DNA of 64,000 nucleotides from Lunatibacter salilacus (lineage in GTDB: Bacteria; Bacteroidota; Bacteroidia; Cytophagales; Cyclobacteriaceae): assembly GCF_009797935.1 (NCBI RefSeq), contig NZ_VOLC01000017.1, forward strand, positions 1-64,000, written 5' to 3'. The notes under the pieces were generated by a model. The model was given only the letters and a program-made list of their open reading frames with translations, was not told the origin of the DNA and did not search any database. Below, piece by piece: positions 10,906-36,603 of the stretch (the stretch's first letter is position 1; each line of letters starts with the position of its first letter). A program made the translations under genes and the position numbers.

Positions 10906-12327
10906 TTAAAATTTCTTAATTCGCTTTGGCTTTTCCTCTTTTTCTTCCATGTCATATGGCAGTCCCCATACCCTTCCCTTGCTATCTCCAAAGTACAACT
11001 TGGAAACACTAAAATCGTCTGGATTTCCATCGGCCCAAAAATAGAGAAAAGGATCCTGACCGTTACTAACCCTACGTGCATAATTGTGGTTACGTGGACT
11101 ATCTGAGGTAATCTGTTTGGCCATAGTCCATGTCTTTCCCTTATCGGTACTTTTCCATTGCTGCAGCTCTCCTCCTGCCCCCCACTCCTGCGGACTGTTT
11201 TCAGTGGGACCGATTACCATCCAGTTATCCCCGTCTATCCAAAGGCTACCGCTGTCGTAATTCTGGTCTGAGGTAGTGATCTGATGATTTTCCCATTCAG
11301 AACCATTCCAATAAATTACACTCCATGTTCTTGGCCCATTAGCAGGACCGGGCTGATGACCGGGACCGGATACGTACAAAGCAATGGGGTTTCCTTGTGA
11401 ATCAAAATTTACATCTTTGATATATACGTTTACCCCCTCACTGTAAAATTCCTTAACCAAAACTGAAGCATCCACATCAGTCACCGGAACCGACACTTCA
11501 TCCCCTTGGACGGTAGTCCATGTATTTCCAAAATCAGTGGATTGAAAATAATAAATATTTGTACGCTGATCCACATTTCCGTTTGGGTGCCAATTGCAGA
11601 AAAAGACAACTTTTTCCCCATACTGCCCCGAAATCTGGTAATGGCCGCTGTTTTGATCTCCCTCCCGTTTCATCGCTACTAGCAGTCTGTCATCAGTCCA
11701 AGTAACCCCATCTGCACTGGTTTCTGTGTACAGCTCCCTGACTCCCGTATATTTTGTAAATAGGTTTAAAAAGCCCTTTCCCGGTATGAATTTGGGCTGT
11801 GGATAGGTCATCTCTTCTTGTGTAATCAGATCGAAAGATTCAATGTTGTAGGGTTCTTTACTACGGTATTTATATCCCATGCGTCTTCTTCCCCTCCCAC
11901 TGACAAAAACCCATATATATCCCTGATCATCGATGGATAAACTGGGATTGTCGTGGGGGTCATCGACTCCCTCCTTATCATGAACCACTACGGGTTTAGT
12001 TACCCTTTTGGTTTTATGGTCAAAGCTTCCAATCATGCAAAGCAGGTATTTTTCATCGGGACCAGTTGTGCCACCGTAAACGAAAAATGTCTTTTTTACC
12101 TTCGGGGCATAAATGGCAAGCGGGATATGTTTGGCTGTATAGGTACCCAAACCTCCCGAATATTTGTCACCATATTCAGAAAACTGGCCTAGCGTAAACC
12201 AAATGCCTTTGTAACCATCCATTTCTTGCCCGGTGTACGATGCATCTTGTGCGGATAAGGGTTGGTGGATAGCAAGGGCAAAAAATAATAGGATTGTAAA
12301 ATATTGAATGGGAATATTGGTTTTCAT
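10906..12327 (-). CDS. secreted BNR-repeat (BNR_4-like) beta-propeller, possible polysaccharide lyase
   Basis: A 473-residue exported protein (signal peptide ending near QPLSAQDASY). It begins the mature part with DGYKGIWFTLGQFSEYGDKY and contains repeated Asp-box-like S/T-x-D-x-G-x-x-W motifs (STDFGNTWTTV, STDKGKTWTMA, ADGVTWTDD), the mark of a BNR/sialidase-type propeller. Families PL24 and PL25 ulvan lyases share such folds, so a lyase or glycan-binding role near the sulfatase genes is plausible but unproven. A TTG two codons upstream of the ATG at 12327 is unlikely to be used. It is separated from the sulfatase run by a response regulator and two terminators. Confidence 0.75.
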   Translation of the reverse strand: MKTNIPIQYFTILLFFALAIHQPLSAQDASYTGQEMDGYKGIWFTLGQFSEYGDKYSGGLGTYTAKHIPLAIYAPKVKKTFFVYGGTTGPDEKYLLCMIGSFDHKTKRVTKPVVVHDKEGVDDPHDNPSLSIDDQGYIWVFVSGRGRRRMGYKYRSKEPYNIESFDLITQEEMTYPQPKFIPGKGFLNLFTKYTGVRELYTETSADGVTWTDDRLLVAMKREGDQNSGHYQISGQYGEKVVFFCNWHPNGNVDQRTNIYYFQSTDFGNTWTTVQGDEVSVPVTDVDASVLVKEFYSEGVNVYIKDVNFDSQGNPIALYVSGPGHQPGPANGPRTWSVIYWNGSEWENHQITTSDQNYDSGSLWIDGDNWMVIGPTENSPQEWGAGGELQQWKSTDKGKTWTMAKQITSDSPRNHNYARRVSNGQDPFLYFWADGNPDDFSVSKLYFGDSKGRVWGLPYDMEEKEEKPKRIKKF

Positions 12328-12435
12328 GGGCAATTGTTTTTCTTAAATTCGTAGGTTATCTCGTCAAAAATAGATCTATCTGTGCAATAAGTTTTCACGT
12401 TTTCTAATTTTTTTGAGAATTTCATTTTTTCAGGG

Positions 12436-12463
12436 CATAAAAAAAGGAAGCTTTACGCTTCCT
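12436..12463 (-). terminator. terminator overlapping the end of the response regulator gene
   Basis: Stem AGGAAGC/GCTTCCT with a 5-base loop, followed on the minus strand by a run of seven T. The stop codon of the response-regulator gene (12453-12455) lies inside the loop. Confidence 0.75.
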
Positions 12464-12851
12464 TAAAAAATTTTTGGGTGATTTTATCCTCCTTCAACCT
12501 ATTAAAACTCTGAAGATTAAATGGTTTTATCCAAAAATCAATAATTTGACCATAATATTTGGATTTTTCCCTTTCCGCCTGTTCAATAGAAGAGGTTATT
12601 ATAATTACCGAAATGTTTTCATCTAATTTTGACTCTTTAAGCTTGTCAAGCACTTGCCATCCTGAAAGACCTGGCATATTAATATCCAGAAACATTAGAT
12701 AATCTTCATCCGCCTTCTGATTAACCAAGAAGCTTAACGCTTCTTCCCCACTGTTGAATGACTCCACTTCATCAATCATTCCAACTTTCTCCATTAATTT
12801 CTTTTGTAATAAAATTACAATCGGATCATCATCTACAAGTATTATTTTCAC
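12453..12851 (-). CDS. single-domain response regulator (CheY-like receiver)
   Basis: A 132-residue receiver domain with no output domain. The acidic pair is in IILVDDDPIVI, the phospho-acceptor Asp in LMFLDINMPGLSGW, the Thr/Ser switch in VIIITSSIEQ and the conserved Lys in FWIKPFNLQ. It would be phosphorylated by a histidine kinase encoded elsewhere and signal by protein contact. The stop codon is embedded in its own terminator hairpin. It lies between two glycan-related transcription units, but no shared control is visible. Confidence 0.92.
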   Translation of the reverse strand: MKIILVDDDPIVILLQKKLMEKVGMIDEVESFNSGEEALSFLVNQKADEDYLMFLDINMPGLSGWQVLDKLKESKLDENISVIIITSSIEQAEREKSKYYGQIIDFWIKPFNLQSFNRLKEDKITQKFFKEA

Positions 12852-13155: not shown

Positions 13156-14571
13156 CTACATAAGGTGAGCAAATACAGACTCATAATGGGCAGAAGGGGC
13201 CAATATTCCACCACTCTTTTCATAAAAAGACTTATCTGTAGGATATACACCCTCTTTAGTCTTTACCCATGACCCTTCGGGCATAGGGTGATAGGATAAC
13301 ATCTTGTCCCAGTTTTTATAATATTGATGACCATTCGTTTCCTGAAGGCCTAGATTCATATCAGGAAATGGAGCCAATCTTGCAGCGACATTCTTATTCC
13401 AATCCACAAGGATGGGGTTTACCGTAAGATCCGCACAAAAGCATGGGATTCCTTTTTCGTAGGAGGCTTGGGCAATTTTCATGGTCATACTCATCGTCTT
13501 TGCAATTGCTTTTACGGCAATTGCCTGATATCCTTGCTCTATCCGAATAAGGGCATCCTTTACTGTATGGGCACTTTCATCGGCTGCGACTCGTACGCCA
13601 AGATCCCCGACATAGGATTCATTCTTCTCCCCAAAAGGCTCTTCAATTACCGCTATCTGATCAAAGGCACCTATCTTTTTAGCATGATCCAAAAACCTTT
13701 CCAGCGTTTCTTTCGTCTCATACCTCTCGTTAGCGTCAAAATAGTAGGGGATTTTTCCATTGGCTGTGTAAGGGGTTTCCAAGTGGCCCAGCGATTTGTG
13801 AACCGCAGTCAAAAATTCGATGTCTTTCGCCAACATTTCCTTTTGAGTACCTGCCGAGCCGGTTTTCAGCTTCATGATAAAATGGCCTCTGTCAGCAGCA
13901 GCCCTCACATCATCTACACTCGCTCCTACGCTAAACGAAGGAATACTGGCTACTTTGTCGTGCCTATGAGAAAGCCCCGGCTCATAGGCCTCCGGGATCA
14001 TTTCATCAAATTTCGTAAAGCCGTTTTCCTCTCCAAATAGGAGCCATGCGGCATTATCAACGGAAACGAGGGCGTTCAGCGCAAAAGTGGCTTTTAGGTC
14101 GGGGTTGCCTGTGATTTTTTGTCCATAGGCATAGACCTCTGGAAAGAGCTCGTCCAAAAGGGATACCGGGTCGGTAAAGCTTCTTCCTTTTACAAGCTGC
14201 AATGCCCGTTCTGTCATGGCATACATTAGCGCATTTCCTCCGTTGGTCGAGTGGGCCGCAAATACGTTCTGATCAGACCAGAGGACACCTTGCGTTCCTA
14301 TTCCAATTTTATGCATGCCACTACTTGACCGCATATATGCCAAAACCTGCCAAGCCTCCGTAATCGCACTGCCTTTAAACCGATAAGGAATCAGCGGTTC
14401 ACGTTCAAAATTGGAATCTACCTGATCTATCGTTATTTTTTTCAACGCTTTTTTCATGGATGGGTTACTTTGGTTTGTTATAGGGTTAAAACCGGCTGCT
14501 CCAAGAGCCATAATGGCTCCAGATCTATGGAGAAATGTTCTCCGGTCAATTCCTTTAAAATCATTTTGCAT
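13156..14571 (-). CDS. Tat-exported enolase-superfamily enzyme (muconate cycloisomerase/epimerase-like)
   Basis: A 471-residue protein with a Tat leader (GIDRRTFLHRSGAIMALGA), so it folds in the cytoplasm and acts outside it. Enolase-superfamily barrel residues are seen in order: KLK at 234-236, metal ligands D279 (YYFDANERY), E310/E311 (IEEPFGE) and D331 (AADESAHT), and Lys 354 or 358 (AVKAIAK). A KxK and distal Lys with three acids is the pattern of the muconate-cycloisomerase/dipeptide-epimerase side rather than the His-Asp mandelate racemase side. The ATG at 14571 is chosen because it starts the leader; a longer frame reaches 14631. It follows the cytochrome/propeller gene by 11 bases. 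Substrate is unknown; an acid sugar from the same pathway is an inference. Confidence 0.8.
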   Translation of the reverse strand: MQNDFKGIDRRTFLHRSGAIMALGAAGFNPITNQSNPSMKKALKKITIDQVDSNFEREPLIPYRFKGSAITEAWQVLAYMRSSSGMHKIGIGTQGVLWSDQNVFAAHSTNGGNALMYAMTERALQLVKGRSFTDPVSLLDELFPEVYAYGQKITGNPDLKATFALNALVSVDNAAWLLFGEENGFTKFDEMIPEAYEPGLSHRHDKVASIPSFSVGASVDDVRAAADRGHFIMKLKTGSAGTQKEMLAKDIEFLTAVHKSLGHLETPYTANGKIPYYFDANERYETKETLERFLDHAKKIGAFDQIAVIEEPFGEKNESYVGDLGVRVAADESAHTVKDALIRIEQGYQAIAVKAIAKTMSMTMKIAQASYEKGIPCFCADLTVNPILVDWNKNVAARLAPFPDMNLGLQETNGHQYYKNWDKMLSYHPMPEGSWVKTKEGVYPTDKSFYEKSGGILAPSAHYESVFAHLM

Positions 14572-14582
14572 GCTTATATGAG

Positions 14583-16952
14583 TTATTCTGTGGGAATTTG
14601 ATTGAGGGTGTACCAGGCTTCTCCCGACCACATGGATTGACCTTGATTATTGGTGATATTTTCGGATAATAGAAAGTAGACTACATGTTCTTTTTTCAAA
14701 CTGGGAAGTTCCAAGTACACTTTCATCCTATCCTCTGATATGGATATTTGGGTGGGATATAAATGTTCCAGATCTTTTTTGGGGCCTCCGTAGGAAGATG
14801 TGGGCAAATACCACCATTGTTGGATGGAGAAATCATCTGTCGACCATTCCCTATCCTCCAAAGGCTCCGTAAATTCTATCTCAAACCCATTGGGTTTCGC
14901 CCGGATGGCCAGCATTTCGAAGGTTGACTTTCCGTTGTAGGTCAATTTTTCGAGGCCAAATTGCCTTTCCTTCCAACTCCATCCGCCGACCATACCTACC
15001 TCCCCGACATATAAGGCACCATCCGGCCCCCACGCCAACCGATTGACACCTGCGTGAAGGCCTTGGGTAAACCGAAAGACAGCACCCTGATAGGATCCGT
15101 TAATCAACTCCAGAAAATCACGCTTGATGCCTCCATGCGTCACGTCTCCATGCAACAATTGTCCTTTATACGGTCCATCCATCATCAAGATTGGTTCCGA
15201 AGGTGAGTTTCCAATTTCCGCATCCGGTAACCAAATTGCAGGTGGTACCATGGTTGGGATTTCGGTTACTCCTTCGGGTAACCCCCAGGCCATTCCGTTA
15301 TAGGCATCCTTTTGCACATGTATCAGCTTATTTGCGGGAAGCCACTGCCCTTGATTGTCTGTAACAAATATTTCCCCATCCACGCCCTCTCCGATACCAT
15401 TAGGGGTTCTAAGCCCATAGTCCAAGTATTCAATTTCTCCAGCCTTACTAATTTTGAGCGTTCTCCCGCGATCCGGATGCTGCCTTTCATTTGTTTTTAG
15501 GCGCATAGCCATGGATAGGGTAACGTAAAAGTGGTCTTCTTTATACAGAAGTCCGAAGGCAAATTCATGGAAATCATCCGTTACACCCCAGGAATTACAG
15601 ATAGTTTCGTAGGAATCAATGATATCATCACCGTCATTATCTACCAGCTTTGTTAATTCATGCTTTTGCAACACATAAATATCTCCATCTACGACTTCCA
15701 TGCCAAGTGGTTCCGCAAGGCCTGCCGCAATTCTCTTGATGTTAAGTTGGGTAGTATCACCCGTATCCACACCGTCTATAAGGTAGATGGCGCCAAATTT
15801 GTCCCAAGTACTCACCAGTAATCTTCCATCTGGCAAAAAAGCAAGTGCTCCTACCCGCGGTTTGAAGCCTTCATGGTGTAGGGTCTTTACTTCATAGCTT
15901 GGATGAACTCCCTCCAGGGAAATCCCAAATCCCGGTTTTCTAAGAGAAATTTCTTCTTTTGCCACGGATCGAACCACATTTGACTGTCCCGTTGAGGTTT
16001 TTTGGGATTTTGGCGCAAAGGTCATAATATAATCCAACATGGGCCGTATATCTGCGGCATCCAAATCGGGATGGGCATTCATCATCACTTCACCCCAAAC
16101 ACCATTGCCTCCTTCTTTGATTTTCTGCATAAGGTAAGGATACGTGCTTTTGTCCCCATTATATTTACTGGCTATTGAAGTAAAGGAAGGGCCAACATTA
16201 TCATTTATCTCTTCGTGACAGGTATAGCAGTCGCTGGTTTCCATACGTAAAATTCCCAAATGATCATATTGCTCCCCTAAGGATGGAGGAGATTGATCCT
16301 GAATTGGATCAAAATACGTGGGAAGCTTATGGGTGCCGTTTTCAGCCATTGAAAATTTTCCTTGCTCAGAAAATAGTAGAACCTCCGTTGCCTCGGGCAT
16401 TTCGGAGATAATAAAAGTTCTTAACAGACCCGGATTTCCATCCTCACTAGCCCCATATTCGGGATTTTCTTTAATAATTACTGTCCCTATTTCCGCATGT
16501 ATTAATTCATAGACCAACCAAATCTGGTTGTTTTCAAAGGCATATCCCTTTTGTCTAATGACGATATTTGATAGTGGCTGCCCGTTAAAATTTACTTGCC
16601 ATTTATTTAAAATGGCTTCATTTTCCTGATAAGGAACTCCCCATGTGGTCGGCTGAATGTTCTTTTTGTTGGTGTATACCGTTCCTTCCAAAAACACTCC
16701 GCCTTTCCAAACTTTATAAAGTTGACTGTTTGCCAAGTCATACGCCACAAATAATTCTGGGTGCAGGGCTAGGGTAAGCATTCTGGGCTTTTTATCCAAT
16801 ACAGATCGAAAAGCCCAGGGGTCCATCGGTCGTTCATATTGAATAACTGGTTCTTTGCAACCAATCATGACAAACAAGACTGTTGAAATAAGAGAAATAC
16901 TAAGAAAAGGTTGACTAAATTGTCGTGACAATACTCTAGTAAAATTACTCAT
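14583..16952 (-). CDS. lipoprotein with cytochrome c domain and sorbosone-dehydrogenase-like propeller
   Basis: A 789-residue envelope lipoprotein (lipobox VLFVMIGC, Cys about 32). A single c-type haem site CYTCH lies at about 242-246, followed by VGPSFTSIASKYNG and a likely distal Met in EVMMNAHPD. From about residue 345 there is a six-bladed glucose/sorbosone-dehydrogenase-type propeller (LAFLPDGRLLVSTWDKFGAI, GLRTPNGIGEGVDGEIFVTD, LAWGPDGALYVGEVG). The first 200 residues are a beta-rich domain. It probably oxidises a sugar or alcohol and passes electrons to the haem. The frame opens at 16997, but the ATG at 16952 gives the lipoprotein leader. It lies between a sulfatase and the exported enolase-superfamily enzyme. 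Confidence 0.83.
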   Translation of the reverse strand: MSNFTRVLSRQFSQPFLSISLISTVLFVMIGCKEPVIQYERPMDPWAFRSVLDKKPRMLTLALHPELFVAYDLANSQLYKVWKGGVFLEGTVYTNKKNIQPTTWGVPYQENEAILNKWQVNFNGQPLSNIVIRQKGYAFENNQIWLVYELIHAEIGTVIIKENPEYGASEDGNPGLLRTFIISEMPEATEVLLFSEQGKFSMAENGTHKLPTYFDPIQDQSPPSLGEQYDHLGILRMETSDCYTCHEEINDNVGPSFTSIASKYNGDKSTYPYLMQKIKEGGNGVWGEVMMNAHPDLDAADIRPMLDYIMTFAPKSQKTSTGQSNVVRSVAKEEISLRKPGFGISLEGVHPSYEVKTLHHEGFKPRVGALAFLPDGRLLVSTWDKFGAIYLIDGVDTGDTTQLNIKRIAAGLAEPLGMEVVDGDIYVLQKHELTKLVDNDGDDIIDSYETICNSWGVTDDFHEFAFGLLYKEDHFYVTLSMAMRLKTNERQHPDRGRTLKISKAGEIEYLDYGLRTPNGIGEGVDGEIFVTDNQGQWLPANKLIHVQKDAYNGMAWGLPEGVTEIPTMVPPAIWLPDAEIGNSPSEPILMMDGPYKGQLLHGDVTHGGIKRDFLELINGSYQGAVFRFTQGLHAGVNRLAWGPDGALYVGEVGMVGGWSWKERQFGLEKLTYNGKSTFEMLAIRAKPNGFEIEFTEPLEDREWSTDDFSIQQWWYLPTSSYGGPKKDLEHLYPTQISISEDRMKVYLELPSLKKEHVVYFLLSENITNNQGQSMWSGEAWYTLNQIPTE

Positions 16953-17000
16953 GTAGTGTAGCCTGCAAAATTTTGCTGAATTCGGTTGGGACTTCATATT

Positions 17001-18446
17001 TTAAAATGGGCCTTTTTGGTTGGTTTTCATCGCTGCTTGACCCCCAGGCGTGGATCCTCTTGTTTGCACTTTATCCAAAGGATTACCTGTTTCTTTATCA
17101 TACCAGTCCCCCGTTAGGTTATCAGGTTCTGTGTCAAGTGTTTCTTTTCTCCATTGATCCAATATATCTCTCATTTCCCGCAATTTCTCTTTATGCTTTG
17201 GGACAGACGCGATGTTGATTAGTTGGTCATAATCGTCAGCAACGAAAAACAACTGTTCAAAAGGCCTGGGTATACTAAAGATATCTGACTGAGCAGGGCT
17301 AAGTTTTCCAAGGTCTCTCAGTCGTTTCAAATCAGCATAGGAGTCACTTTTATTTGAATCCGCAGGTCCATTCAAAGACAAATTTGGCCGAAGGTTGAGC
17401 ACATAGAGGTAATCCTTGGTCCGAACCATGCGCTCATAGGCCTCATGATCGTGCCAGTTATGTTCGGCAAAAACGAAATTCCTGAATTCCATTTTCGGAT
17501 TACTCAACACCTCCGTAAAACTTTTTCCCTGAAAAGAAGGACCTACCTCGATTCCGGCCAAATCCAAAATAGTCGGAGCTATATCAATACTGCTTATCAA
17601 ACTTTTGGAGACATTAGGGCTACTTTTTATCCCTTCCGGCAACAATATTATCAAAGGCGATTTGATCCCGGAGTCATACATTCGTGTTTTGCTCCTAGGA
17701 AAGGGGCGGCCATTGTCTGACATGATGATTATGACCGTATTATCCAACACGCCCTGCAGCTCAAGTTCCCGCTCCACTTCTCCAACATAAAAATCAAACC
17801 GGGTGATCTCATCGTAATATTGCGCCAAATCCTTTTTAGTAGGAAGTGAATCAGCCAAATAAACAGGAGGTTTTATCAATAGTGGGTCGTGTGTTCCTGA
17901 AAAATCATTTGGGCCCCATGGACGGTGGGCATCCAATGCCGCAAACCACATGAAAAAAGGTTTGTCCCTGGGTCTTTCATTAAGTGTCTGCACCCACATG
18001 CCCTCTCCCCCATCACCCATGGATGCGCCCCTGTCATGGATAACATCAAATCCGCTCCGTGGTGCATCGCCCATATGCCATTTCCCTGCCTGGGCCGTAA
18101 AGTAGCCAGCATCTTTCAATAACTCCGGAAAAGAGACCATTTCTTCCGGTAACGGTGTATGCAATTCAGCTGCACCGGTATTGTGGGGGTATCTGCCTGA
18201 GATGATACTCGTGCGGCTTGGACTGCAGGAACTGGTGGTCAAGTAAAAATTGTCAAACTTGATGCCTTGTTGGGCCATTCTGTCAATGTTGGGACTACTT
18301 ACCAAGGGATGGCCATAGCACCCCAAATCATCCCAACCTATGTCATCGGCTATTATATAGACTATATTAGGCCTAGGATCGGCTGCCTGTAGACCCGATG
18401 CCAAAAAACAAAAGAAAAGAACGACAATGATTTTCCTATTTTTCAT
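17001..18446 (-). CDS. secreted sulfatase, S1 family (CSPSR)
   Basis: A 481-residue type I sulfatase with a signal peptide (CFLASGLQAADP). It carries the formylglycine site CSPSRTSIISGR with the modified Cys at 74, metal-binding D34/D35 (YIIADDIGWDD), and MSDNGRPFPRSKTR in the C-terminal half of the catalytic domain. It hydrolyses sulfate esters or sulfamates of a glycan outside the cytoplasm once the Cys is oxidised. Overall spacing resembles sulfoglucosamine-sulfohydrolase-like (SGSH) sulfatases, which is tentative. Its start abuts the stop of the next sulfatase gene, so both are co-transcribed. The required activator is encoded two genes upstream. Confidence 0.92.
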   Translation of the reverse strand: MKNRKIIVVLFFCFLASGLQAADPRPNIVYIIADDIGWDDLGCYGHPLVSSPNIDRMAQQGIKFDNFYLTTSSCSPSRTSIISGRYPHNTGAAELHTPLPEEMVSFPELLKDAGYFTAQAGKWHMGDAPRSGFDVIHDRGASMGDGGEGMWVQTLNERPRDKPFFMWFAALDAHRPWGPNDFSGTHDPLLIKPPVYLADSLPTKKDLAQYYDEITRFDFYVGEVERELELQGVLDNTVIIIMSDNGRPFPRSKTRMYDSGIKSPLIILLPEGIKSSPNVSKSLISSIDIAPTILDLAGIEVGPSFQGKSFTEVLSNPKMEFRNFVFAEHNWHDHEAYERMVRTKDYLYVLNLRPNLSLNGPADSNKSDSYADLKRLRDLGKLSPAQSDIFSIPRPFEQLFFVADDYDQLINIASVPKHKEKLREMRDILDQWRKETLDTEPDNLTGDWYDKETGNPLDKVQTRGSTPGGQAAMKTNQKGPF

Positions 18447-20036
18447 TTAATCCAGCGGTTCATTTTCGAAATCTGTTTCATTAACCCAGCCCGCTTTTGG
18501 GGTATCCCCCTCAAGGTATCTGGAATAAAAATTCGCTGTATTTGGATCTGCATATGGATAACCCTCAAATACTTCTCCCCGTCCAAACATTCTGGGATCC
18601 CCTTCGGCTCTCAACTGATCGAACAATTGCTTTTTTAGCGTTTCTTTTGTGGACTGGTGTTCCGGATGCAGAGAAAGGTTGTTCAGGCATTCCGGATCTG
18701 TTTGCTTAAGGTATAATTCTTCCGTTGGACGTTTGCCAAAATTTCCCGACCAATAAAACGCTGAATCAGCATCCCTTCTCCTGTTTAGTATTACTGTTTT
18801 AGTTGGGCTGCCATCCGTGTTAAGATAGCCTGTTTCTGGATTTCCGGCTGGCCATCGATCTGTTTCAAAATTGTGTAAGTACACGTAATTATCCGTGATA
18901 ATTCCGCGAATGGGATAACCGACATCATTTGGACGCCCCACGTCATGCCGTTCCTGCCCTATAATGACGGCATTTCTGCTTTTCTCTATTCGGCCCGAAA
19001 GGTTGCTTGTAAAGATATTCAATAAACTTCTTCCTGTGATTTCAGGCATTCCGACTTCAGAAGGCTGTATTTCCGCTAATTCAAGTATCGTGGGAGCTAT
19101 GTCAGTAAAGCTGATGAAATCATCCACGTTCCTGCCCGGATGTTTTATTCCATAAGGCCACATCACTGCAAATGGCATATGATGCGACCATTCATAGGCA
19201 TTTCCCTTTACTCTCGGAAATGGCATCCCATTGTCAGAGGTGACTATAATAAGCGTATTTTCAAGTTCTCCCCGCTCTTCTAAAATCTCAATCATCTGCT
19301 GCAGATGCTGGTCGAAATATTCTATTTCCATCGCATAATCCAACATATCATGTCTCACGGAGTCAATATCAGGCCAAAATCCGGGGACAGCATCTATATC
19401 TGTTAATTTCTTCCCGGCCTTATCTACTCCTGACTGAAATTCATAAACCCTATGAGGTTCGGTAGAGCCATACCAAAAGAAGAACGGTTCATCCCCTCTT
19501 TTCTCTTCCAAGAAATCCTCGAAGTTTCTGGCATAATCGTTTGTGCTAATAGCGGTAGTCGGTGGTTCAAGCGAATGCTTCTGAAACCGGGGTCCTGTTA
19601 GTTCTCTGGGTTTACCATCTTTTTCTCCCGGATTTCCCGGTGCCCAGCCCTTACCTGTAAATCCTGTATAGTATCCATTACCTCCCAATACCTCAATAAA
19701 AGACAAGAATTTATTCGGGAAAAAGGGAACATGGTTTGCCGCTTCTTCCAGTTGCCAGGAATTCCTTCCTGTCAGAATTATGGATCTGGACGGGGAACAT
19801 TTTGCATTCGGCGTATAGGCGTTGGTAAACAATATTCCTTCCGCTGCTACCCGATCGAATGCCGGGGTATTTACCCAACTGGTGCCATAGGCTCCCATAT
19901 GGGGAAACGATGCATCATCCGCAATGGCAAACAATATATTCGGCTTTTTATAGGGAGGTTTATCTGTAGATTTACAACTGAATGTTGCACTTAGCAAAAC
20001 TAAAAGACAAACATACAGGTTTTTTTTCATTGACAT
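18447..20036 (-). CDS. lipoprotein sulfatase, S1 family (CSPSR)
   Basis: A 529-residue sulfatase with lipobox LLSATFSC (Cys 21). The formylglycine motif is [12 protein letters not shown] at Cys 80; metal ligands are in [13 protein letters not shown], and [14 protein letters not shown] is the second conserved block. Two ATG codons at 20036 and 20030 are both possible. It is paralogous to the following sulfatase but clearly diverged, so the two probably remove sulfate at different positions or from different sugars. The gene is 24 bases from the formylglycine-generating enzyme gene and adjoins the next sulfatase, indicating one transcript. Confidence 0.92.
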
Positions 20037-20060
20037 GATGGGTTTACTTTATCAGTACGG

Positions 20061-21206
20061 CTACTTTGAGGATACACACCTAAACCCGGTATGTTCCAAT
20101 CCTGTATCTGGTGAAGACTTCATTTTGGCACTTACCCTGTACCCTTCGCAATAGGATACATTGCAGAGGAACGAACCGCCTTTTACAATTCGTTTTGGAA
20201 CAGTGGGTTCCTGAGGGTCGTAGCTGCTGCCTGGCCCTTTGGGATTGACAATCAAATCTTCCTGAATAGTTGCATAGTAATCCTCATGATACCAATCTGC
20301 CGTCCACTCCCATACATTGCCTGCCATGTCATACAACCCGTATGCATTGGGATCAAATGATTTTACGGGTGCCAGACCCAAAAAACCATCCTTTCCTGTA
20401 TCGTTTACCGGAAACTCCCCCTGCCAGATATTGGCTAAAAAACCATCTGTCTCTACAGGTTTGTCTCCCCAGGGAAAAGATTTCCCATCTACTCCTCCCC
20501 TTGCGGCATACTCCCACTCAGCTTCTGTCGGAAGGCGCTTTCCTGCCCATTTGGCATATTCAACCGCATCGTCCCAAGCGATATGCACTACGGGGTAATT
20601 GTCCTTTCCCGATATGCTACTGCCAGGTCCTTGGGGATACCTCCAGTTTGCGCCTTCGGTCCAAGCCCACCACTGCGCTGCGTTTTGCAGCGAAACCTGC
20701 TGGGCCGGAGGATTAAATGTGAGGGAAGCCGCTACAAGTACTTCCTCCGGGGGTTTGGGTGTGCCAGGAGGAAGTTGTTTCTTGATTTCCTCCCAATCCG
20801 GTTTTTGTTCCGCAATGGTTACATACCCCGTAGCCGCTACAAAAGCAGCAAACTGTGCATTGGTAACTTCCGTCTCATCAATCCAAAACCCGTCTACCTT
20901 TACCCGATGGGCGGGAAGTTCATCTTTACGACCACGACCATCGGCGGCGCCGCGGGTATAGGTTCCCCCTTCTATCCAAATCATCCCCTCATGGGAAACT
21001 TCTTTGGAATCTTCGCCCGAATTTTCACGAGCAACTGCATTTGATTGATTTCCAAACCTGTCAGGAATATTATCATGGCACGAAGCTAAATCATCATCAA
21101 TGGCTAATTCTCCAGATTCTCCGATATGTTTTTTGTCAGTACCGCAGGAACTTACCGCCCCTATGATTATTAAGAAGAAAAAGGATTGCAGGACATATTT
21201 TAACAT
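20061..21206 (-). CDS. lipoprotein formylglycine-generating enzyme (sulfatase activator)
   Basis: A 381-residue SUMF1/FGE-fold protein with lipobox IGAVSSC (about Cys 21), so it would act outside the cytoplasm. Family blocks: MIWIEGGTYTRGA, DGFWIDETEVTNAQFAAFV, YPVVHIAWDDAVEYAKWAG, RLPTEAEWEYAARGG, NVWEWTADWY and the terminal GGSFLCNVSYCEGYRVSA. The two cysteines in that last block (about 348 and 353) match the copper-binding pair of true FGEs, which convert the sulfatase Cys to formylglycine with oxygen. Many FGE-fold paralogues lack this pair, so real FGE activity is supported. It lies directly upstream of two CSPSR sulfatases. The uncommon point is its lipoprotein anchor. Confidence 0.9.
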   Translation of the reverse strand: MLKYVLQSFFFLIIIGAVSSCGTDKKHIGESGELAIDDDLASCHDNIPDRFGNQSNAVARENSGEDSKEVSHEGMIWIEGGTYTRGAADGRGRKDELPAHRVKVDGFWIDETEVTNAQFAAFVAATGYVTIAEQKPDWEEIKKQLPPGTPKPPEEVLVAASLTFNPPAQQVSLQNAAQWWAWTEGANWRYPQGPGSSISGKDNYPVVHIAWDDAVEYAKWAGKRLPTEAEWEYAARGGVDGKSFPWGDKPVETDGFLANIWQGEFPVNDTGKDGFLGLAPVKSFDPNAYGLYDMAGNVWEWTADWYHEDYYATIQEDLIVNPKGPGSSYDPQEPTVPKRIVKGGSFLCNVSYCEGYRVSAKMKSSPDTGLEHTGFRCVSSK

Positions 21207-21320
21207 GGTAATTTCCGATTAATTAATTTTTTAAATATAGAAAACAAGACAAAAGAAGCCTACGATTCTGTCAGTTTTTTGATAAGGGCCACAATGAATA
21301 CCTTTAAGGGGCATATAGGC

Positions 21321-23225
21321 TTATAACCACGTTCCCAGAAAATAAGCCATACGACGGTTTACTTCGTCATTTACAGCTTGGGGCTTTATATCCCCTACAT
21401 CAAAGCGATAATTCACGATGGGATGATCCTTAAAAAAAACGAGGCTATTCATTACCTGCAAAATTTCTACAGGGTCCGAACTTTCATTGATAAGTTGGAT
21501 TAATCCCGGGAATGGATCCACTTGAGCATGAATACCCAAATATTCTACTACCCGCCACCTAACAAGTAGACTCTTGTCTTCGGTCATTTCGCCAATTATT
21601 TCCCGTACTTTTTGGTTTTGAGACCTAGCTGTTTGAGCAGTTACGGCCCAGTACCTTACCAACTCATCCGAATCAGATAGGGCACTGATCAAAGCTTGAG
21701 ATGCAGTTTCTGATTGATCTACTGCCAAATGAGACGTGTTCATTAATTTATTTAACCTATCTTTATTTTCCTTTCCAAACCCTACCGGGTTGTTTATGGC
21801 TTCCTTGACCATGACGGATTCGGGAAGAAAACTTAAATCCAATATCTGTTCAGATTTTTGGCTGGAAAGGTCACGTAATGATTTCAGTTTTTCAAAATGA
21901 TCCGGATCCTCAGCTAAATTTTGGGTTTCATGGGGGTCATTTTCCAGGTCGAAGAGCATTTCAGCAGGTTTCCCCAAAAAGAACTGCTCGGTTTCATTTG
22001 AAAGATTTCCCTGCTCAAAGAGTGATCTCCATTCGGCAAAAGCCAACAATTGGTATCGATAGTTATTATGAAGTCCATCGGGATAGTAGGGCTGAAAGCT
22101 TCGTATGTATTTCCATTTTCCCTTACGTACTGACCGCAGCATTTCATATTTCTCATCAAATCTGTCGGCGTATCCATAAGTCTCATCCCGGCTAGAAATC
22201 TCTTCCATGGATAATTCCCGACCTAAAAAAGCTTTTCCGTCCATTTGATCTGGAATAGCCAAACCGGCTAAATGGAGTAAGGTTGGAGCAAAATCAATAA
22301 AACTCACAAATCCCTCCATAGTTTGCGGGATTTGTGAGGGAACGAGATGCCTCCAATTCTCAGGAACCCTTACCACTAATGGAACATGTAGACCAACTTC
22401 ATACAAATACCCTTTGCTTCGGGGAAGAACTCCTCCATGGTCCCCAAAATAAAACACAAAGGTATCCTCCAAAAGTCCGTCCTCGCTAAGTTCGGTCAAC
22501 CGTTTACCAACCCAGTCATCTATTTCTCTTATCTTGTCACGATGGAATGCGGTGGTAAAGCGAAAAGTAGGTGTATCGGGAAAATAGGGAAAAAGGGTTA
22601 CTTCTTGAGGGTTTTCTTTCGTATGGTGGCTTCGCATAAAGTCCTCCTTAAAATGAAGACGACTTTCATGGGATTCCATAAAGGTTTCCTGGTGGAAAAA
22701 GGGCTGGTGGGGGTTATCGCGATTCCTCCAAGAGGCCTGAACGGATGATTCATCCCATACTTCAGGGCTTTCCTCCGCATTGTAATCCTTTTTGTTGTTG
22801 TTGGTTGTATAATATCCCTCCCTCCGCAAATAAACGGGAAACATTTCCAAACCCTCCGGCATTGGTGCGGCTTTCGTTTTTCGGTGATATTGAATGCCAG
22901 TTCGGGGAGCCATGGTGCCTGTGATTAGTGTACTCCTTGCCACAGAGCAAACGGGTGAGTTGGAAAAAGCGTGGGAATATAGCAAACCTTGAGTGGCCAT
23001 AGCTTCTATATGTGGTGTTTCCACCCCGTCAGAGTCAAATAACCGCATAAAATGTTTTGAGTTATCCTCCGAAATTAGCCAAACGAAATTTGGACCTTTA
23101 GTGGGTCCACCGTCCATACTAGCGATTTGCGTGGCATGGGAAAACTGGAAGCTTAAGCCTAAAAAAAAGCCAATGAGAATTCTAAAAAGAGGATTAAACC
23201 GACAAGAAAAGGTTTTTATGTACAT
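21321..23225 (-). CDS. secreted sulfatase with CSVAR motif and HEAT-like C-terminal repeats
   Basis: A 634-residue sulfatase with a signal peptide (FSHATQIAS region). The catalytic-site motif is CSVARSTLITG at Cys 93: position 3 is Val where the consensus C-x-P/A-x-R has Pro or Ala. Other sulfatase marks remain (VWLISEDNSKHFMRLF, FYFGDHGGVLPRSKGYLYE). The last 150 residues are helical pairs such as ELVRYWAVTAQTARSQNQ and SLLVRWRVVEYLGIHA, typical of HEAT repeats. It may bind another protein or polysaccharide through that tail. It sits 114 bases upstream of the FGE gene. Whether the altered motif is converted to formylglycine is open. Confidence 0.87.
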   Translation of the reverse strand: MYIKTFSCRFNPLFRILIGFFLGLSFQFSHATQIASMDGGPTKGPNFVWLISEDNSKHFMRLFDSDGVETPHIEAMATQGLLYSHAFSNSPVCSVARSTLITGTMAPRTGIQYHRKTKAAPMPEGLEMFPVYLRREGYYTTNNNKKDYNAEESPEVWDESSVQASWRNRDNPHQPFFHQETFMESHESRLHFKEDFMRSHHTKENPQEVTLFPYFPDTPTFRFTTAFHRDKIREIDDWVGKRLTELSEDGLLEDTFVFYFGDHGGVLPRSKGYLYEVGLHVPLVVRVPENWRHLVPSQIPQTMEGFVSFIDFAPTLLHLAGLAIPDQMDGKAFLGRELSMEEISSRDETYGYADRFDEKYEMLRSVRKGKWKYIRSFQPYYPDGLHNNYRYQLLAFAEWRSLFEQGNLSNETEQFFLGKPAEMLFDLENDPHETQNLAEDPDHFEKLKSLRDLSSQKSEQILDLSFLPESVMVKEAINNPVGFGKENKDRLNKLMNTSHLAVDQSETASQALISALSDSDELVRYWAVTAQTARSQNQKVREIIGEMTEDKSLLVRWRVVEYLGIHAQVDPFPGLIQLINESSDPVEILQVMNSLVFFKDHPIVNYRFDVGDIKPQAVNDEVNRRMAYFLGTWL

Positions 23226-23332
23226 TATTTCGGGTTTGTTTGTTGAGTATCCAATTGATATGGTAGCATTATCTCAATCAATAAATCATTGAACGTCTTT
23301 ATAACCCATACCTTATACTGTTAAGTGCAATA

Positions 23333-24466
23333 TTATAGTTTGCAGATTGCCACGGCGATTTTGGAGTCGGCTGTTCCATAGTATAAGAACCAGTTTCCTT
23401 TATAGGGCACCATCCCCTCAATAAAACAGACGTGGTTAATTTGCCCATCTATTTCATAGTCCTTTTCGGGAGTTAGGAAATAATTTTCAGACCGATCAAT
23501 TACTTGTGTGGGATCATCCAATGAAAATAACGCTTGGCCGGCAGAATATGCTCCTGAAACTAGGTCAGGATCACCTCCTTCATCTAAATTCATCCCATTG
23601 TAAAGCAATAAGATCCCCTCGTCCCTGATCAATCCAAAGGGACCTGCCTCCACAAGCCTGCTGTCAAACTTTCCAGGCCTAGGTGCTAGGACCGATTTTA
23701 GTCTTCCATTTTCGAGAACAGGCCTCCAATTGATTAAGTCTTGGGAAACAGCCATATAAAGGTCTGTATCTCCAAAATACATCCAGTATTTTCCATTGAT
23801 CTTTTTAGCAATAACCTGATCTCCTTGCTGTTCTCCGACCACTGCTCCTGCTTTGCTCCATGAGTCCTTAAATTCTCCTGTCAGGACTCGGCCGTATTTA
23901 TCCCACGAGATTAAATCATCGGAAATGGCGTACATCAATCTGGCGGTCGTACCATCGTAGGAAGTATAGGTCATGAAATATCTGCCATCATCTGTGGATA
24001 TAACACGAGGGTCCTCTACCCCACCATCCCACTCCAGCGGTTTTAAGCTGTCATTCTCAGGATAGAATATTGGACTAGGACGTTTTGTGAACTGCAACCC
24101 ATCTTCACTTATAGCCAATCCAATGCGCGAGGTACCGTTGTTTGTTCCGATAAAATCCTCAGCTCTATACAATAAATTTATTTTACCGTCTTTGACTACG
24201 GCTGCGGGATTAAATACATCCTTAGCTTCCCAAGCTACTTCTTCATTCAATATGGGACACAAAAAAGTCAAATCTCCCGGCTCCAACACAGGATTTATGC
24301 TGTCAACTTTTACAAATGGTCCTAGGCTCCAAGAATCCAGAGGTTCAGTAGTCTCGTTGTTGGATGTGTGACTGGACTGGCAGGATATTGCCAACCAAGC
24401 AATAACGAATAGACCAATTAAACCACTTAAGAACCCAGGAGTATCAATTTCGGTGAATTTTGGCAT
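23333..24466 (-). CDS. lipoprotein glycoside hydrolase, GH130-like five-bladed propeller
   Basis: A 377-residue protein with a lipobox near residue 29 (IAWLAISC). Family features: FNPAAVVKDGKINLLYRAED, SRIGLAISEDGLQFTKRP, GVEDPRVISTDDGRYFMTYT, and WYFGDTDLYMA-like and HVCFIEGMV blocks. GH130 enzymes act on beta-linked mannosides, as cytoplasmic phosphorylases or as exported hydrolases; lipoprotein export favours hydrolysis. It is 19 bases downstream of the OmpA-like gene and precedes the sulfatase, consistent with one glycan pathway. GH43/GH117-type propellers are the main alternative. Confidence 0.75.
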   Translation of the reverse strand: MPKFTEIDTPGFLSGLIGLFVIAWLAISCQSSHTSNNETTEPLDSWSLGPFVKVDSINPVLEPGDLTFLCPILNEEVAWEAKDVFNPAAVVKDGKINLLYRAEDFIGTNNGTSRIGLAISEDGLQFTKRPSPIFYPENDSLKPLEWDGGVEDPRVISTDDGRYFMTYTSYDGTTARLMYAISDDLISWDKYGRVLTGEFKDSWSKAGAVVGEQQGDQVIAKKINGKYWMYFGDTDLYMAVSQDLINWRPVLENGRLKSVLAPRPGKFDSRLVEAGPFGLIRDEGILLLYNGMNLDEGGDPDLVSGAYSAGQALFSLDDPTQVIDRSENYFLTPEKDYEIDGQINHVCFIEGMVPYKGNWFLYYGTADSKIAVAICKL

Positions 24467-24485
24467 AACGGATTTAGAAAGGAGT

Positions 24486-26072
24486 TTAATTCTCTAAAAC
24501 TACCAATTCTACCCGCCGATTCAAAATTCTACCTGCTTCTGTCCTATTGTCCGCTTTGGGACGGGTTCCGCCATAACCGGCTACCCTAATCCGCTCAAAA
24601 TCCACCCCTTGCTTTACTAGTAAATCCCGAATCTGGGACGCCCTTAGAGTTGATAGCGTTTTATTCAGTTCTACATTTCCCAAATTGTCCGTATGTCCTT
24701 CCAACCCGATTTTGATAGTTGGAGATGAAATGAGAAAATCAGCAAGAGTATTTATATAGCCTATTGAGAGGGAATCTGTTAATTGCGAACTGCTACGCTC
24801 AAATTGAATGACAGACAAATCCAAGCGGCTTCCCGGTTCCACTGGCGTCAAATATTCCTTCGAAAACGGTTGGTTCCAATCAATTTTCAGAGGGATATAA
24901 CCTGGAACACTCATTATCCAAGACCCATCTTCCGCATCAAGAGCGGCATAATCATTGGTCGACAGAATTTCGCCATTAGGTGAAATAACTTTTATGGAGA
25001 AATCATTTACGTGCAGGGAAGCATGATCAATCCAGTATTGTCTTTTTTCTCGTATGGTAAGTGGTGTAGATTCAGCTTTTTCGGGGATTGACGTCGTATC
25101 ACCCAAATTGGGGATCTGTTCGTCGGTGGGCTTAGTGATATTATAAACCTCAGGAATAGGCTGCTTTTTTCCCCTCTGATCTACCGATATTATTTTATTT
25201 ATTTCGGCCGTGATTTCAGATGGAAGGAGAAAAATATCCCCATATCCCTCACTACTGCTCGTGCTTGTGAAAAATGTGTTTCCATTTACCTGGTTTTCCA
25301 TGAAAGAAAGTGTTATACCCTCCTTATCCAAAAAAGTCAGAGGTACAGGCAAGCTCCAATTGCTGAACGTATCATCAAGCCTTAGGGAATAAAACAATTG
25401 ATAACCAGACCCTTGATCTGGTCGGTTAGACGAAAAAAACAATATATTATCCTCTTCTTTATAGAAGGGTGTTAATTCCTGATAGGAAGAATTGATAGTC
25501 GGCCCCAAATTGATGGGCCTAGACCATGAATTGGTTCTGTCATTCCACCTAGTGATGTATAGGTCTTCATTACCATAAGATCCGAAGGACTGCATCGACA
25601 TCAATATCATTTCTCCGTTTTGGCTTAGCCTACCGTTGAAATTTGCGCCAAGGCTTCTCAGGCCGGGAATATTCAAGGCACTATCCATCTGCCAATAACC
25701 CCCATTTAGCTGATACACAAATATGCCATGCATACCTTCATAATGATGGTGAAAAACGTAGGCTGTTTGGTCATCGGGAAAACCGATAATTAGGTCATAG
25801 GAATCGGTGGCAAATTCGTCTACTTTGGCGGGTTCAGAAAATTCTCCCTCAGATACAAGGCTACTTTTCCAAATATCTCCGCTCCCACCATTTCCAGTAT
25901 TTCCAGGCTGTAAAACCCGTGTAAAATATAAATCACCAGACGTATGGATTACTGGATGCAATTCATCGAAGGATGAATTTACGTTAGATACTGGCAGGGG
26001 TACTTGCGCACAAATGGTATTAAAAGCAAAAAAAGCAACTGCAAAAGTCAGCAGTGCTTTTTTAAAAGGCAT
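24486..26072 (-). CDS. OmpA-family protein with N-terminal PD40 propeller
   Basis: A 528-residue exported protein with a signal peptide (FFAFNTICAQVP). Residues 30-300 hold repeated WD40-like PD40 blades (NSSFDELHPVIHTSGDLYFT, NGRLSQNGEMILMSM, LTPFYKEEDNILFFSSNRPD). The C-terminal 110 residues are an OmpA peptidoglycan-binding domain (LEGHTDNLGNVELNKTLSTL, VAGYGGTRPKADN, NRRVELVVL). It would tether a protein or glycan-sensing module to peptidoglycan. The ATG at 26072 is chosen over 26090 because it gives a normal leader. It heads the sulfatase-cluster run, directly after the deoxyhypusine-synthase-like gene. Confidence 0.88.
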   Translation of the reverse strand: MPFKKALLTFAVAFFAFNTICAQVPLPVSNVNSSFDELHPVIHTSGDLYFTRVLQPGNTGNGGSGDIWKSSLVSEGEFSEPAKVDEFATDSYDLIIGFPDDQTAYVFHHHYEGMHGIFVYQLNGGYWQMDSALNIPGLRSLGANFNGRLSQNGEMILMSMQSFGSYGNEDLYITRWNDRTNSWSRPINLGPTINSSYQELTPFYKEEDNILFFSSNRPDQGSGYQLFYSLRLDDTFSNWSLPVPLTFLDKEGITLSFMENQVNGNTFFTSTSSSEGYGDIFLLPSEITAEINKIISVDQRGKKQPIPEVYNITKPTDEQIPNLGDTTSIPEKAESTPLTIREKRQYWIDHASLHVNDFSIKVISPNGEILSTNDYAALDAEDGSWIMSVPGYIPLKIDWNQPFSKEYLTPVEPGSRLDLSVIQFERSSSQLTDSLSIGYINTLADFLISSPTIKIGLEGHTDNLGNVELNKTLSTLRASQIRDLLVKQGVDFERIRVAGYGGTRPKADNRTEAGRILNRRVELVVLEN

Positions 26073-26090
26073 ATAATTAGTTGAGATCAT

Positions 26091-27062
26091 TTATTTTCCC
26101 AAAACGATGGCAAATACCAATGGGGCCACAATGGTAGCATCCGATTCAATAATAAATTTCGGGGTATCCAAACCCAGCTTCCCCCAAGTTATTTTTTCAT
26201 TGGGAACTGCCCCAGAATATGAGCCATAGGAAGTGGTGGAGTCGGATATCTGGCAAAAATAACCCCAAAGCGGAACATTATTTCGCTGTAAATCCTGATG
26301 CAGCATGGGTACGACACAAATGGGGAAATCGCCGGCAATACCGCCACCAATTTGGAAGAAACCGATGGTGCTGTCTTCTTTGGCATTTTCGGTATACCAA
26401 TCCGCAAGGAATATCATGTACTCAATTCCACTTCTAACTGTATGAACATTTTTTATGTCTTGAGATATACAATGTCCCGCATACATATTTCCTAATGTAG
26501 AATCTTCCCATCCTGGAACGATTATCGGCAAATTTTTCTTGGCAGCTTCAAGCAACCAACTGTCTTTTGGGTCTATTTGAAAGGATTCGTCCATTTTACC
26601 TGACAGAAGAATCTTATAGAAGAACTCATGCGGGAAGTAGGATTCTCCTGCCTTATCGGCCCGCTGCCATTCTTCAAGAATGACATCTTCGATCCTTCTC
26701 ATTGCTTCCATTTCTGGAATACAAGTATCCGTCACCCTGTTCATATGCCTTTCCAGTAGTCCCTGTTCCTCTTCGGGGGACAAATCACGGTAATGTGGAA
26801 TCCGTTCGTAATAATTGTGGGCTACCAAATTAAAAACATCCTCCTCCAAATTAGCTCCCGTACAGGTGATGATTTGAACTTTATCTTCCCGGATCATCTC
26901 AGCCAGAGAAATGCCCAATTCCGCTGTGGACATGGCTCCCGCCAACGTAATCATCATTTTGCCGTTGTTGGCTAGGTGGGCATTATACCCTTCCGCCGCA
27001 TCTATCAAAGCTGCTGCGTTAAAGTGACGGTAATTATGTTTTAGAAAATTCGTTATTTCCAT
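26091..27062 (-). CDS. deoxyhypusine-synthase-family protein lacking the catalytic Lys
   Basis: A 323-residue cytoplasmic protein of the deoxyhypusine/homospermidine synthase family: NAHLANNGKMMITLAGAMST, VQIITCTGANLEEDV, SDSTTSYGSYSGAVP, and KITWGKL near the end. Eukaryotic enzymes have GGGVxKHH with the Lys that forms the covalent imine; here the aligned segment reads GGGIAGDFPICVVPM, so that Lys is absent. Bacteria have no eIF5A substrate, so a polyamine reaction is the usual proposal for such proteins. The gene may be transcribed with the downstream OmpA-like gene. The enzymatic reaction is unknown. Confidence 0.85.
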   Translation of the reverse strand: MEITNFLKHNYRHFNAAALIDAAEGYNAHLANNGKMMITLAGAMSTAELGISLAEMIREDKVQIITCTGANLEEDVFNLVAHNYYERIPHYRDLSPEEEQGLLERHMNRVTDTCIPEMEAMRRIEDVILEEWQRADKAGESYFPHEFFYKILLSGKMDESFQIDPKDSWLLEAAKKNLPIIVPGWEDSTLGNMYAGHCISQDIKNVHTVRSGIEYMIFLADWYTENAKEDSTIGFFQIGGGIAGDFPICVVPMLHQDLQRNNVPLWGYFCQISDSTTSYGSYSGAVPNEKITWGKLGLDTPKFIIESDATIVAPLVFAIVLGK

Positions 27063-33824: not shown

Positions 33825-33849
33825 GTGTATTTTGGTTTATTATTATGTG

Positions 33850-36549: not shown

Positions 36550-36603
36550 CGTAAAGTAGAAAAAAGGAGTAAGTCCATATATCGGAAATTTGGCAAGCAA
36601 TAT

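Follow-up and report, generated by a model that had tools for sequence, protein, structure and literature searches.

The window, by which we mean the whole 64,000-nucleotide stretch of Lunatibacter salilacus DNA analysed here, carries on its minus strand a compact run of eight genes (13156-26090), from an enolase-superfamily enzyme (ENO) to a protein with an OmpA domain (Table 1). An original prediction, made from the sequence alone, had counted nine. From ENO onward the genes are separated by 11, 3, 0, 24, 114, 107 and 19 bases, with the ENO start set at the ATG at 14571. Pfam recognizes in the run three Sulfatase domains and one domain each of FGE-sulfatase, GH130, OmpA and MR_MLE_C. All products had been expected to be exported or envelope proteins, and all eight have export-type leaders (by eye, and for the sulfatases and the formylglycine-generating enzyme, FGE, also by script): Tat-like in ENO (RRTFLHRSG), lipobox-like in the dehydrogenase-like protein DH, the sulfatase S1a, FGE and GH130, and Sec-like in the sulfatases S1b and S1v and the OmpA-domain protein.

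Table 1. Genes of the run and their neighbours (positions in the window)
Feature	Position	Strand	Basis
Exported BNR_4 propeller protein	10906..12333	-	PF15892 65 bits; NF052497 weak
Response-regulator receiver protein	12453..12851	-	PF00072
ENO, Tat-type exported enolase-superfamily enzyme	13156..14571	-	PF13378 33.7 bits; MLE-like residues
DH, lipoprotein dehydrogenase-like	14583..16997	-	cytochrome c sequence matches; propeller by predicted fold
S1b, exported S1_8-like sulfatase	17001..18446	-	CSPSR; PF00884 178 bits
S1a, lipoprotein sulfatase	18447..20036	-	CSPSR; PF00884 159 bits
FGE, lipoprotein formylglycine-generating enzyme	20061..21206	-	PF03781 279 bits; catalytic GGSFLCNVSYC
S1v, exported S1_8C-like sulfatase, HEAT-like C-terminal part	21321..23225	-	CSVAR; 9bba S1_8C 499 bits
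Lipoprotein GH130	23333..24466	-	PF04041 158 bits; 3r67 329 bits
Exported protein with C-terminal OmpA domain	24486..26090	-	PF00691 60 bits
Deoxyhypusine/homospermidine-synthase-like gene	26091..27062	-	PF01916 133 bits

The run is open on its upstream side, where a deoxyhypusine-synthase-like gene lies 0 bases from the OmpA gene and also adjoins the run in three relatives (G001, G019 and G117). Its product is presumably cytosolic, and the gene probably stands outside the pathway. Promoter-like and terminator-like matches are at the level of shuffled sequence (38 vs 35.7 and 16 vs 16.8, respectively), so the scan does not establish the transcription units of the run. On the other side, a response regulator follows ENO in 13 of the 15 genomes that carry the five-gene core described below, and the BNR_4 gene, whose product has a distant likeness to the BT3686 rhamnosidase, comes next in 12 of them.

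Pfam and motifs agree with the GH130-like protein, the CSVAR sulfatase and the two CSPSR sulfatases that had been anticipated. All three sulfatases keep the catalytic Cys and the Arg four residues later. The updated PROSITE pattern, as given in the accessible text of its source (PMC5066984), asks for Pro or Ala two residues past the Cys; S1a and S1b conform to it, and S1v, with Val, falls outside. Since S1_8A also deviates at this position, with Thr (CSTAR), the Val reads as a habit of the subfamily and not as a loss; the CSVAR motif recurs in 9/9 distinct S1v orthologues inspected. By sequence, S1v and S1b are closest to S1_8 enzymes, a subfamily call made from PDB matches: the second-best match of S1v is S1_8A (198 bits), and S1b matches S1_8B (180 bits), S1_8A (169), SGSH (140.5) and 5g2v (139.6). 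The best matches of S1a are near-equal (S1_8A 98.7, SGSH 97.1 and 5g2v 90.9 bits). Position 2 is the site of action of S1_8 members, according to the available part of a study of Pseudoalteromonas distincta (PMC12549532).

The GH130 protein is related to the beta-1,2-mannosidase BT3780 (PDB 5a7v) and to 3r67, and falls below the NCBIfam equivalog cut-off for the BT3780 type (NF058598, 406 bits vs 550). At the first catalytic position an Asp replaces the Glu of 3r67 in 4/4 orthologues and the second Glu is kept, these aligned positions being presumably the two catalytic Glu sites of the BT3780-type mannosidase. Its neighbour had been called PD40-OmpA: the OmpA half stands, and PD40 has no Pfam match in this protein even at E values up to 5.

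The predicted cytochrome c/propeller dehydrogenase is borne out for DH, the cytochrome c by sequence and the propeller by predicted fold. Its layout comprises an N-terminal beta domain, a c-type cytochrome, a PQQ-sugar-dehydrogenase-like propeller and a C-terminal beta domain. All Pfam matches are below cut-off (the nearest is DUF7133, 26 bits vs 27), and the PQQ families of Pfam, including GSDH, give no match. The modelled propeller (365-690, pLDDT 74.8) superposes on 3a9g with Z 28.8 and rmsd 2.9 over 292 aligned positions, PQQ sugar dehydrogenases being its closest relatives (Z around 23 for other propellers). DH thus has its propeller fold in common with PQQ aldose sugar dehydrogenases (3a9g, 2ism, 3das) and with AA12 pyranose dehydrogenase, but identity is 15-20% and a c-type haem stands ahead of the propeller. 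A cytochrome fusion is also found in AA12 pyranose dehydrogenase.

The leader and the PF13378/MR_MLE_C match of ENO fit the Tat-exported enolase-superfamily enzyme that had been proposed. Residues K234, K236, D279, E310, E311, D331, E332 and K354 are invariant in 14 sequences; we take them to represent the MLE-type pattern of a Lys-x-Lys, three metal acids (Asp/Glu/Asp) and a second Lys. A PDB sequence search returned nothing at E 0.001 (best profile match E 0.059), and the predicted model is poor (pLDDT 60.6), with an unreadable active site. In model fold and residue pattern ENO resembles the muconate-lactonizing/dipeptide-epimerase branch, with a weak alignment to MLE proteins, but differs in being exported. 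As regards a possible 3,6-anhydrogalactonate cycloisomerase, the fold neighbours of this low-confidence model include 5xd7-5xd9, but the residue pattern looks Lys/Lys.

The gene order had been expected to recur in other Bacteroidota, and a core of five genes does so: FGE-S1a-S1b-DH-ENO keeps order and strand in 15/15 Cyclobacteriaceae genomes with a closely related FGE, from four genera, and is absent at the next nine FGE loci (0/9, one truncated by a contig end). Because of this conservation in all 15 genomes, the order of the run is beyond chance. The run is nevertheless a composite, made of a block with the deoxyhypusine-synthase-like, OmpA and GH130 genes, a variable S1v and the five-gene core; the presence of GH130/OmpA and of S1v differs between lineages. 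We therefore discarded the idea of a nine-gene operon, given the eight genes counted and this arrangement in relatives.

We favour slightly, with a probability of about 0.55, the reading that the run is an envelope operon, conserved among relatives, that acts on a 2-O-sulfated glycan, and in which FGE, sulfatases, DH and ENO act in sequence and uptake relies on a distal SusCD pair. The lipoprotein FGE would use O2 and copper to convert the sulfatase Cys to formylglycine after export, acting on the sulfatases of the run and on the other exported sulfatases of the genome. The sulfatases, S1_8-like for at least S1v and S1b, would take sulfate, mostly at position 2, off non-reducing ends, and lineage-specific glycosidases (GH130, BNR_4) would trim the chain. 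Once an aldose end is free, DH could oxidise it, yielding an aldonolactone or an aldonate and passing electrons to its own cytochrome c, and ENO could pull the proton beside the new carboxylate, resulting in dehydration, epimerisation or cycloisomerisation. For uptake the cell would draw on a SusCD pair encoded outside the run, an arrangement also seen with the carrageenan regulon of Zobellia. The products of the run probably desulfate, then oxidise, an algal-type sugar. The claim of a complete extracytoplasmic pathway was too strong as worded, because an endo-acting depolymerase was not identified in the run.

The FGE-sulfatase and DH-ENO parts might instead be separate modules that stand side by side, the sulfatases not feeding DH and ENO. 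The DH-ENO pair is indeed found without the other core genes in Aurantibacter and in two Telluribacter genomes, and 8 of the 11 ENO-bearing relatives (among 59 searched) have ENO homologues without the rest of the core. Yet the order kept in every core genome, with gaps that are mostly very short, and a degenerate DH-ENO-sulfatase neighbourhood seen again in G026 (locus L062) make such independence unlikely.

No SusC or SusD was found by Pfam among the eight genes, so that the run is not a canonical polysaccharide utilization locus. The absence of SusC/SusD noted earlier thus holds for this run, but not as a trait of the system. The Lunatimonas relative G117 has FecR-SusC-SusD within its run, a Cyclobacterium locus (L120) has a SusCD pair behind BNR_4, and our host carries, standing apart on another contig (C9), the orthologue of a relative's in-run pair (SusC 84% and SusD 80% identical). 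The SusD orthologue (E 1e-180) occurs in 12/15 core genomes (it is missing from G001, G019 and G159) vs 12/230 others, an association that is no independent evidence, because the core genomes are close relatives. That two related lineages have such a pair within the run or next to it, and that the GH130 and BNR_4 partners are of degradative types, also speaks against the view that the run serves to modify a sulfated polysaccharide of the cell's surface and not food glycans; we consider this improbable, even if an OmpA-domain protein adjoins a run that itself lacks SusCD.

The layout had been thought to lack a named precedent, but the accessible text on the Zobellia galactanivorans carrageenan regulon (ZGAL_3145-3159; PMC5698469) describes a coupling of like genes: sulfatase genes share the locus with those for a sugar dehydrogenase and for a cycloisomerase of the enolase superfamily, and the SusCD pair lies outside it, elsewhere in the genome. 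Both systems thus have in common this enzyme set and a distal SusCD. They differ, within what that text covers, in that the Zobellia dehydrogenase uses NAD(P)+ and the 3,6-anhydrogalactonate cycloisomerase has a Lys base and a His acid, whereas DH, a lipoprotein, combines haem with a propeller like that of PQQ dehydrogenases, and ENO looks Lys/Lys; DH and ENO carry export signals (Tat-like in ENO); and FGE is not among the genes described there. The run is also a candidate for an exported, respiratory-chain-linked oxidise-then-isomerise step, the published carrageenan version being NAD(P)-dependent. Relative to the lambda-carrageenan PUL of P. distincta, as presented in the available part of PMC12549532, S1v is closest to its S1_8C and S1b to its S1_8B, and its GH150, GH110, GH2 and S1_15 are unmatched by Pfam in the genes of the run.

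FGE is, as predicted, a lipoprotein, with a lipobox-like leader; it keeps both catalytic (copper-binding) cysteines. The PF03781 domain spans its whole catalytic part, and the best PDB match, 6s07, aligns GGSFLCHESYC with its catalytic motif. It resembles 6s07, 5nxl and human SUMF1 in the full-length match and the two cysteines, and adds to them the lipoprotein leader and a long linker. FGE is the sole two-cysteine member among the 8 FGE-family loci of the genome and anSME was not found there, which leaves it the only maturase of a known type found in the host. It had been regarded as the locus's own, a notion that we reject: it is the one two-cysteine FGE of the genome, and lipoprotein FGEs are usual among the Bacteroidota FGEs inspected (a crude script finds an export signal in 58/60). 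For the first of these reasons it is more likely to serve all sulfatases of the genome than the run alone. All 30 host sulfatases inspected are Cys-type, with a hydrophobic N-terminal segment (export leader).

The distribution of maturases across genomes is less simple. Strong PF00884 matches, among the matches listed, number 21, at least 53, 17, 1, 8, 5, 10, 10, 2, 6, 8, 48, 2, 18 and 6 in 15 FGE-positive genomes, and 52, 50, 5, 0, 5, 43, 1, 0, 0, 1, 9, 3, 2, 0 and 0 in 15 scored FGE-negative. At least one is thus present in 15/15 of the former vs 10/15 of the latter (one later positive), and the sulfatase-bearing genomes among the negatives do not fit a strict co-occurrence. Nor is anSME the route of FGE-negative genomes: it occurs in 2/31 genomes, G011 (FGE-positive) and G030, the only one of those 15 negatives to have it. 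A PF03781 recheck of five of the ten sulfatase-bearing negatives revealed a two-cysteine lipoprotein FGE below the first cut in G017; neither this recheck nor the anSME search found a two-cysteine FGE or anSME in G005, G006, G007 and G015. The first two have 52 and 50 sulfatase matches among those listed (22/22 of those read are Cys-type) and the others five each. FGE was not found in two genomes of the genus of G006, an empty result that is weak by itself. With sulfatases in these four genomes and neither maturase found, there may be a third way of maturing sulfatases, so that its standing as sole maturase does not prove the role of FGE.

FGE itself appears to be exported. According to the accessible text of a 2015 paper (PMC4505483), the FGE of prokaryotes is a cytosolic enzyme, and the titles and abstracts we searched, which leave most subscription papers outside their coverage, hold no report of an exported FGE in Bacteroidota. 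The leader might be unrelated to maturation, a cytosolic maturase yet unknown doing this work and the exported FGE having another role, like the repurposed GldK/PorK. The many Cys-type sulfatases of G005 and G006 would fit this view, as would the reuse of FGE folds as envelope scaffolds described in the available part of PMC12421860. It seems rather unlikely all the same, since FGE retains both catalytic cysteines, unlike GldK/GldJ, its gene lies beside sulfatase genes, and sulfatases are more regularly present in FGE-positive genomes.

We tentatively propose, at somewhat less than even odds, that in FGE-using Bacteroidota the sulfatases are exported first and then matured in the envelope by a lipoprotein FGE. 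This would resemble the eukaryotic ER and differ from the cytosolic picture for bacteria. The relatives with 50 or more Cys-type sulfatases, in which neither FGE nor anSME was found, would then hint at a further, novel maturase. If FGE is active in the envelope, sulfatase maturation would need oxygen and envelope copper instead of a cytosolic FGE or anSME, the laboratory production of the sulfatases of these sulfatase-rich bacteria would have to be rethought, and FGE would be a single gene whose loss should silence the sulfatome. The same tentative proposal extends to the linker, where a motif conserved in many Bacteroidota FGEs, Cys-x(2-5)-Pro-x-Arg, might be a pseudosubstrate or copper-handling site; it resembles a loosened sulfatase signature.

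Our results show that the minus-strand run is real, conserved and coherent, and that it represents an atypical form of PUL-like locus, not a new system. Its genes, eight where the original prediction counted nine, encode in transcription order an OmpA-domain protein, a GH130 lipoprotein, a sulfatase (S1v), a lipoprotein formylglycine-generating enzyme (FGE), two further sulfatases (S1a and S1b), a cytochrome c/propeller dehydrogenase (DH) and an enolase-superfamily protein (ENO). All have Pfam backing except DH, which fell just below one Pfam cut-off in the search of the run proteins; the PD40 label given to the OmpA-domain protein lacks Pfam support. The catalytic motif is CSVAR in S1v and CSPSR in S1a and S1b. 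Downstream come a response regulator and a BNR_4 protein, and directly upstream a deoxyhypusine/homospermidine-synthase-like gene abuts the OmpA gene. This gene and the OmpA gene are also adjacent in G001, G019 and G117.

Coordinates of the run and of other features in the Lunatibacter salilacus genome
Feature	Position	Strand	Content
Whole run	13156-26090	minus	eight genes
FGE with linker motif	20061-21206	minus
Upstream neighbour	26091-27062		deoxyhypusine/homospermidine-synthase-like
Second haem-type sugar dehydrogenase	32508-38712		GSDH, PKD, cytochrome c, CBM6
Planctomycete-type cytochrome proteins	46908-53158		PSCyt1/PSCyt2/PSD1, two sets
Distant SusCD unit	C9:23638-30626		sigma-factor-like gene (read by eye), FecR-like, SusC, SusD

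The gene order of a five-gene core is shared with other Bacteroidota. Among 245 genomes of the family, 133 had a strong FGE match, and 15 (this one included) formed a group at ≥73% identity, the next FGE being at 60%. The core FGE-S1a-S1b-DH-ENO occurs in the same order and on one strand in all 15, which comprise Cyclobacterium, Lunatimonas, Pleomorphovibrio and other Cyclobacteriaceae/Cytophagales assemblies, and in none of the nine next-best FGE loci fetched, one of which (L114) ends at a contig end right after FGE. Alignment of DH found 15 loci: ten with the full core, three with DH-ENO and not the rest (Aurantibacter and two Telluribacter loci), and two with DH and no adjoining ENO. The partners flanking the core differ among the 15 genomes: S1v (10/15) and GH130 (4/15) lie upstream, the response regulator (13/15) and BNR_4 (12/15; G001 stops at a contig edge before it) downstream. 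In Cyclobacterium, a protein of 579-607 aa with no significant Pfam match directly precedes S1v (L120:1954-3774, L101:5429-7165), itself preceded by B12-binding and radical-SAM parts (one ORF in L101, two in L099). In Lunatimonas lonarensis, AbiEi/AbiEii-like toxin-antitoxin genes (the AbiEii match being weak) are inserted just upstream of FGE (L096:7134-9141).

The reported absence of SusC/SusD holds for this run and fails in relatives: Lunatimonas sp. G117 has FecR-SusC-SusD inside the run, between GH130 and FGE, and Cyclobacterium sp. L120, the sole Cyclobacterium scanned, has SusC-like and SusD-like genes after BNR_4. In L. salilacus the G117-type unit (SusC 84% and SusD 80% identical to G117) stands alone beside ribosomal protein genes. 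The SusD orthologue occurs in 12 of the 15 genomes with the core and, with 56-70% identity, in 12 of the remaining 230; given the close relationship of the core genomes, this co-occurrence is no more than suggestive of a link between the SusCD pair and the core. The carrageenan system of Zobellia, as described in PMC5698469, likewise couples a locus lacking SusCD to a SusCD pair at a distance, and has sulfatases, a sugar dehydrogenase and an enolase-superfamily cycloisomerase. Genome-wide, L. salilacus has 21 SusD matches at E 1e-20 and 40 PF00884 matches, fragments included, on C22, C44, C3 and other contigs, several of them clustered (C22:253-274 kb).

S1v is by far nearest to S1_8C, an enzyme of the lambda-carrageenan pathway (499 bits vs 198 for the next); S1b is nearest to S1_8B, and the matches of S1a decide no subfamily. 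Position 2 is where the characterised S1_8 enzymes act (PMC12549532). CSVAR departs from the published sulfatase pattern (PMC5066984) and is kept in 9/9 distinct S1v orthologues inspected; the motif search for it gave no match in L107, a more distant homologue (39%). The S1a orthologue of G001 has CSLSR. GH130 resembles BT3780-type mannosidases, yet scores below the cut-off for that type, and one of its catalytic positions is occupied by Asp. DH contains a c-type cytochrome, and in predicted-structure comparison its propeller lies closest to PQQ sugar dehydrogenases (292 residues aligned at Z 28.8), ahead of lactonases and DFPase (Z about 23). An MLE-like set of residues is conserved across 14 ENO sequences; the predicted ENO structure is of low quality (pLDDT 60.6), but the folds it matches belong to the MLE branch. 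Elsewhere in the window, the second haem-type dehydrogenase neighbours a Gfo/Idh oxidoreductase and a protein that combines GH141-like and beta-helix parts, and the PSCyt1/PSCyt2/PSD1 sets adjoin a DUF1501 protein.

The part most worth following up is the FGE, whose leader predicts an envelope location; a 2015 paper (PMC4505483) places prokaryotic FGE in the cytosol. The genome has eight FGE-family loci (nine matches, two in one gene), including GldK-like and GldJ-like proteins, and only this FGE has both catalytic cysteines. No anSME, the other known-type maturase, was found in the genome. In all 30 sulfatases read the catalytic residue is Cys and the N-terminus has a hydrophobic segment; one of them, L021, lacks the Arg. 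Hence the one known-type maturase found bears a lipoprotein leader, and the inspected sulfatase clients have export leaders. Whether such an FGE leader is exceptional was judged from 60 two-cysteine FGEs, namely the top-scoring loci of the family and phylum searches (the latter with a match in 47/395 genomes) plus one from a PF03781 recheck. The calls came from a crude script for hydrophobicity and lipobox, not from SignalP: 50/60 were lipoprotein-like, eight had another leader or membrane segment and two were left uncalled, one of these (L191) looking like a lipoprotein on visual inspection.

Two sulfatase-rich genomes, G005 and G006 (52 and 50 strong matches; 9/9 and 13/13 sulfatases read of Cys type; sulfatases of both in L214-L231), had neither a two-cysteine FGE nor an anSME that we could find, and the same was true of G007 and G015 (five strong matches each). 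These cases speak against a universal need for FGE, under which sulfatase-rich genomes would be expected to carry it. All four are drafts rated 97-99% complete; either the FGE gene lies in an assembly gap or another maturase exists. Five more genomes (1-9 strong sulfatase matches) are FGE-negative by the first search; one of them, G030, has an anSME.

Many exported FGEs (L066-L082 and L185-L192, besides that of the window) conserve Cys-x(2-5)-Pro-x-Arg in the linker. Among 51 linkers, delimited by script from leader to catalytic domain, 25 contain Cys-x(2-5)-Pro with Arg 1-3 residues on (e.g. CHDNIPDR), vs a mean of 1.2 and a maximum of 4 in 500 rounds of shuffling, although the sequences are related and the counts not independent. 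The motif extends to FGEs of other families (L185-L192) and resembles a loosened sulfatase signature.
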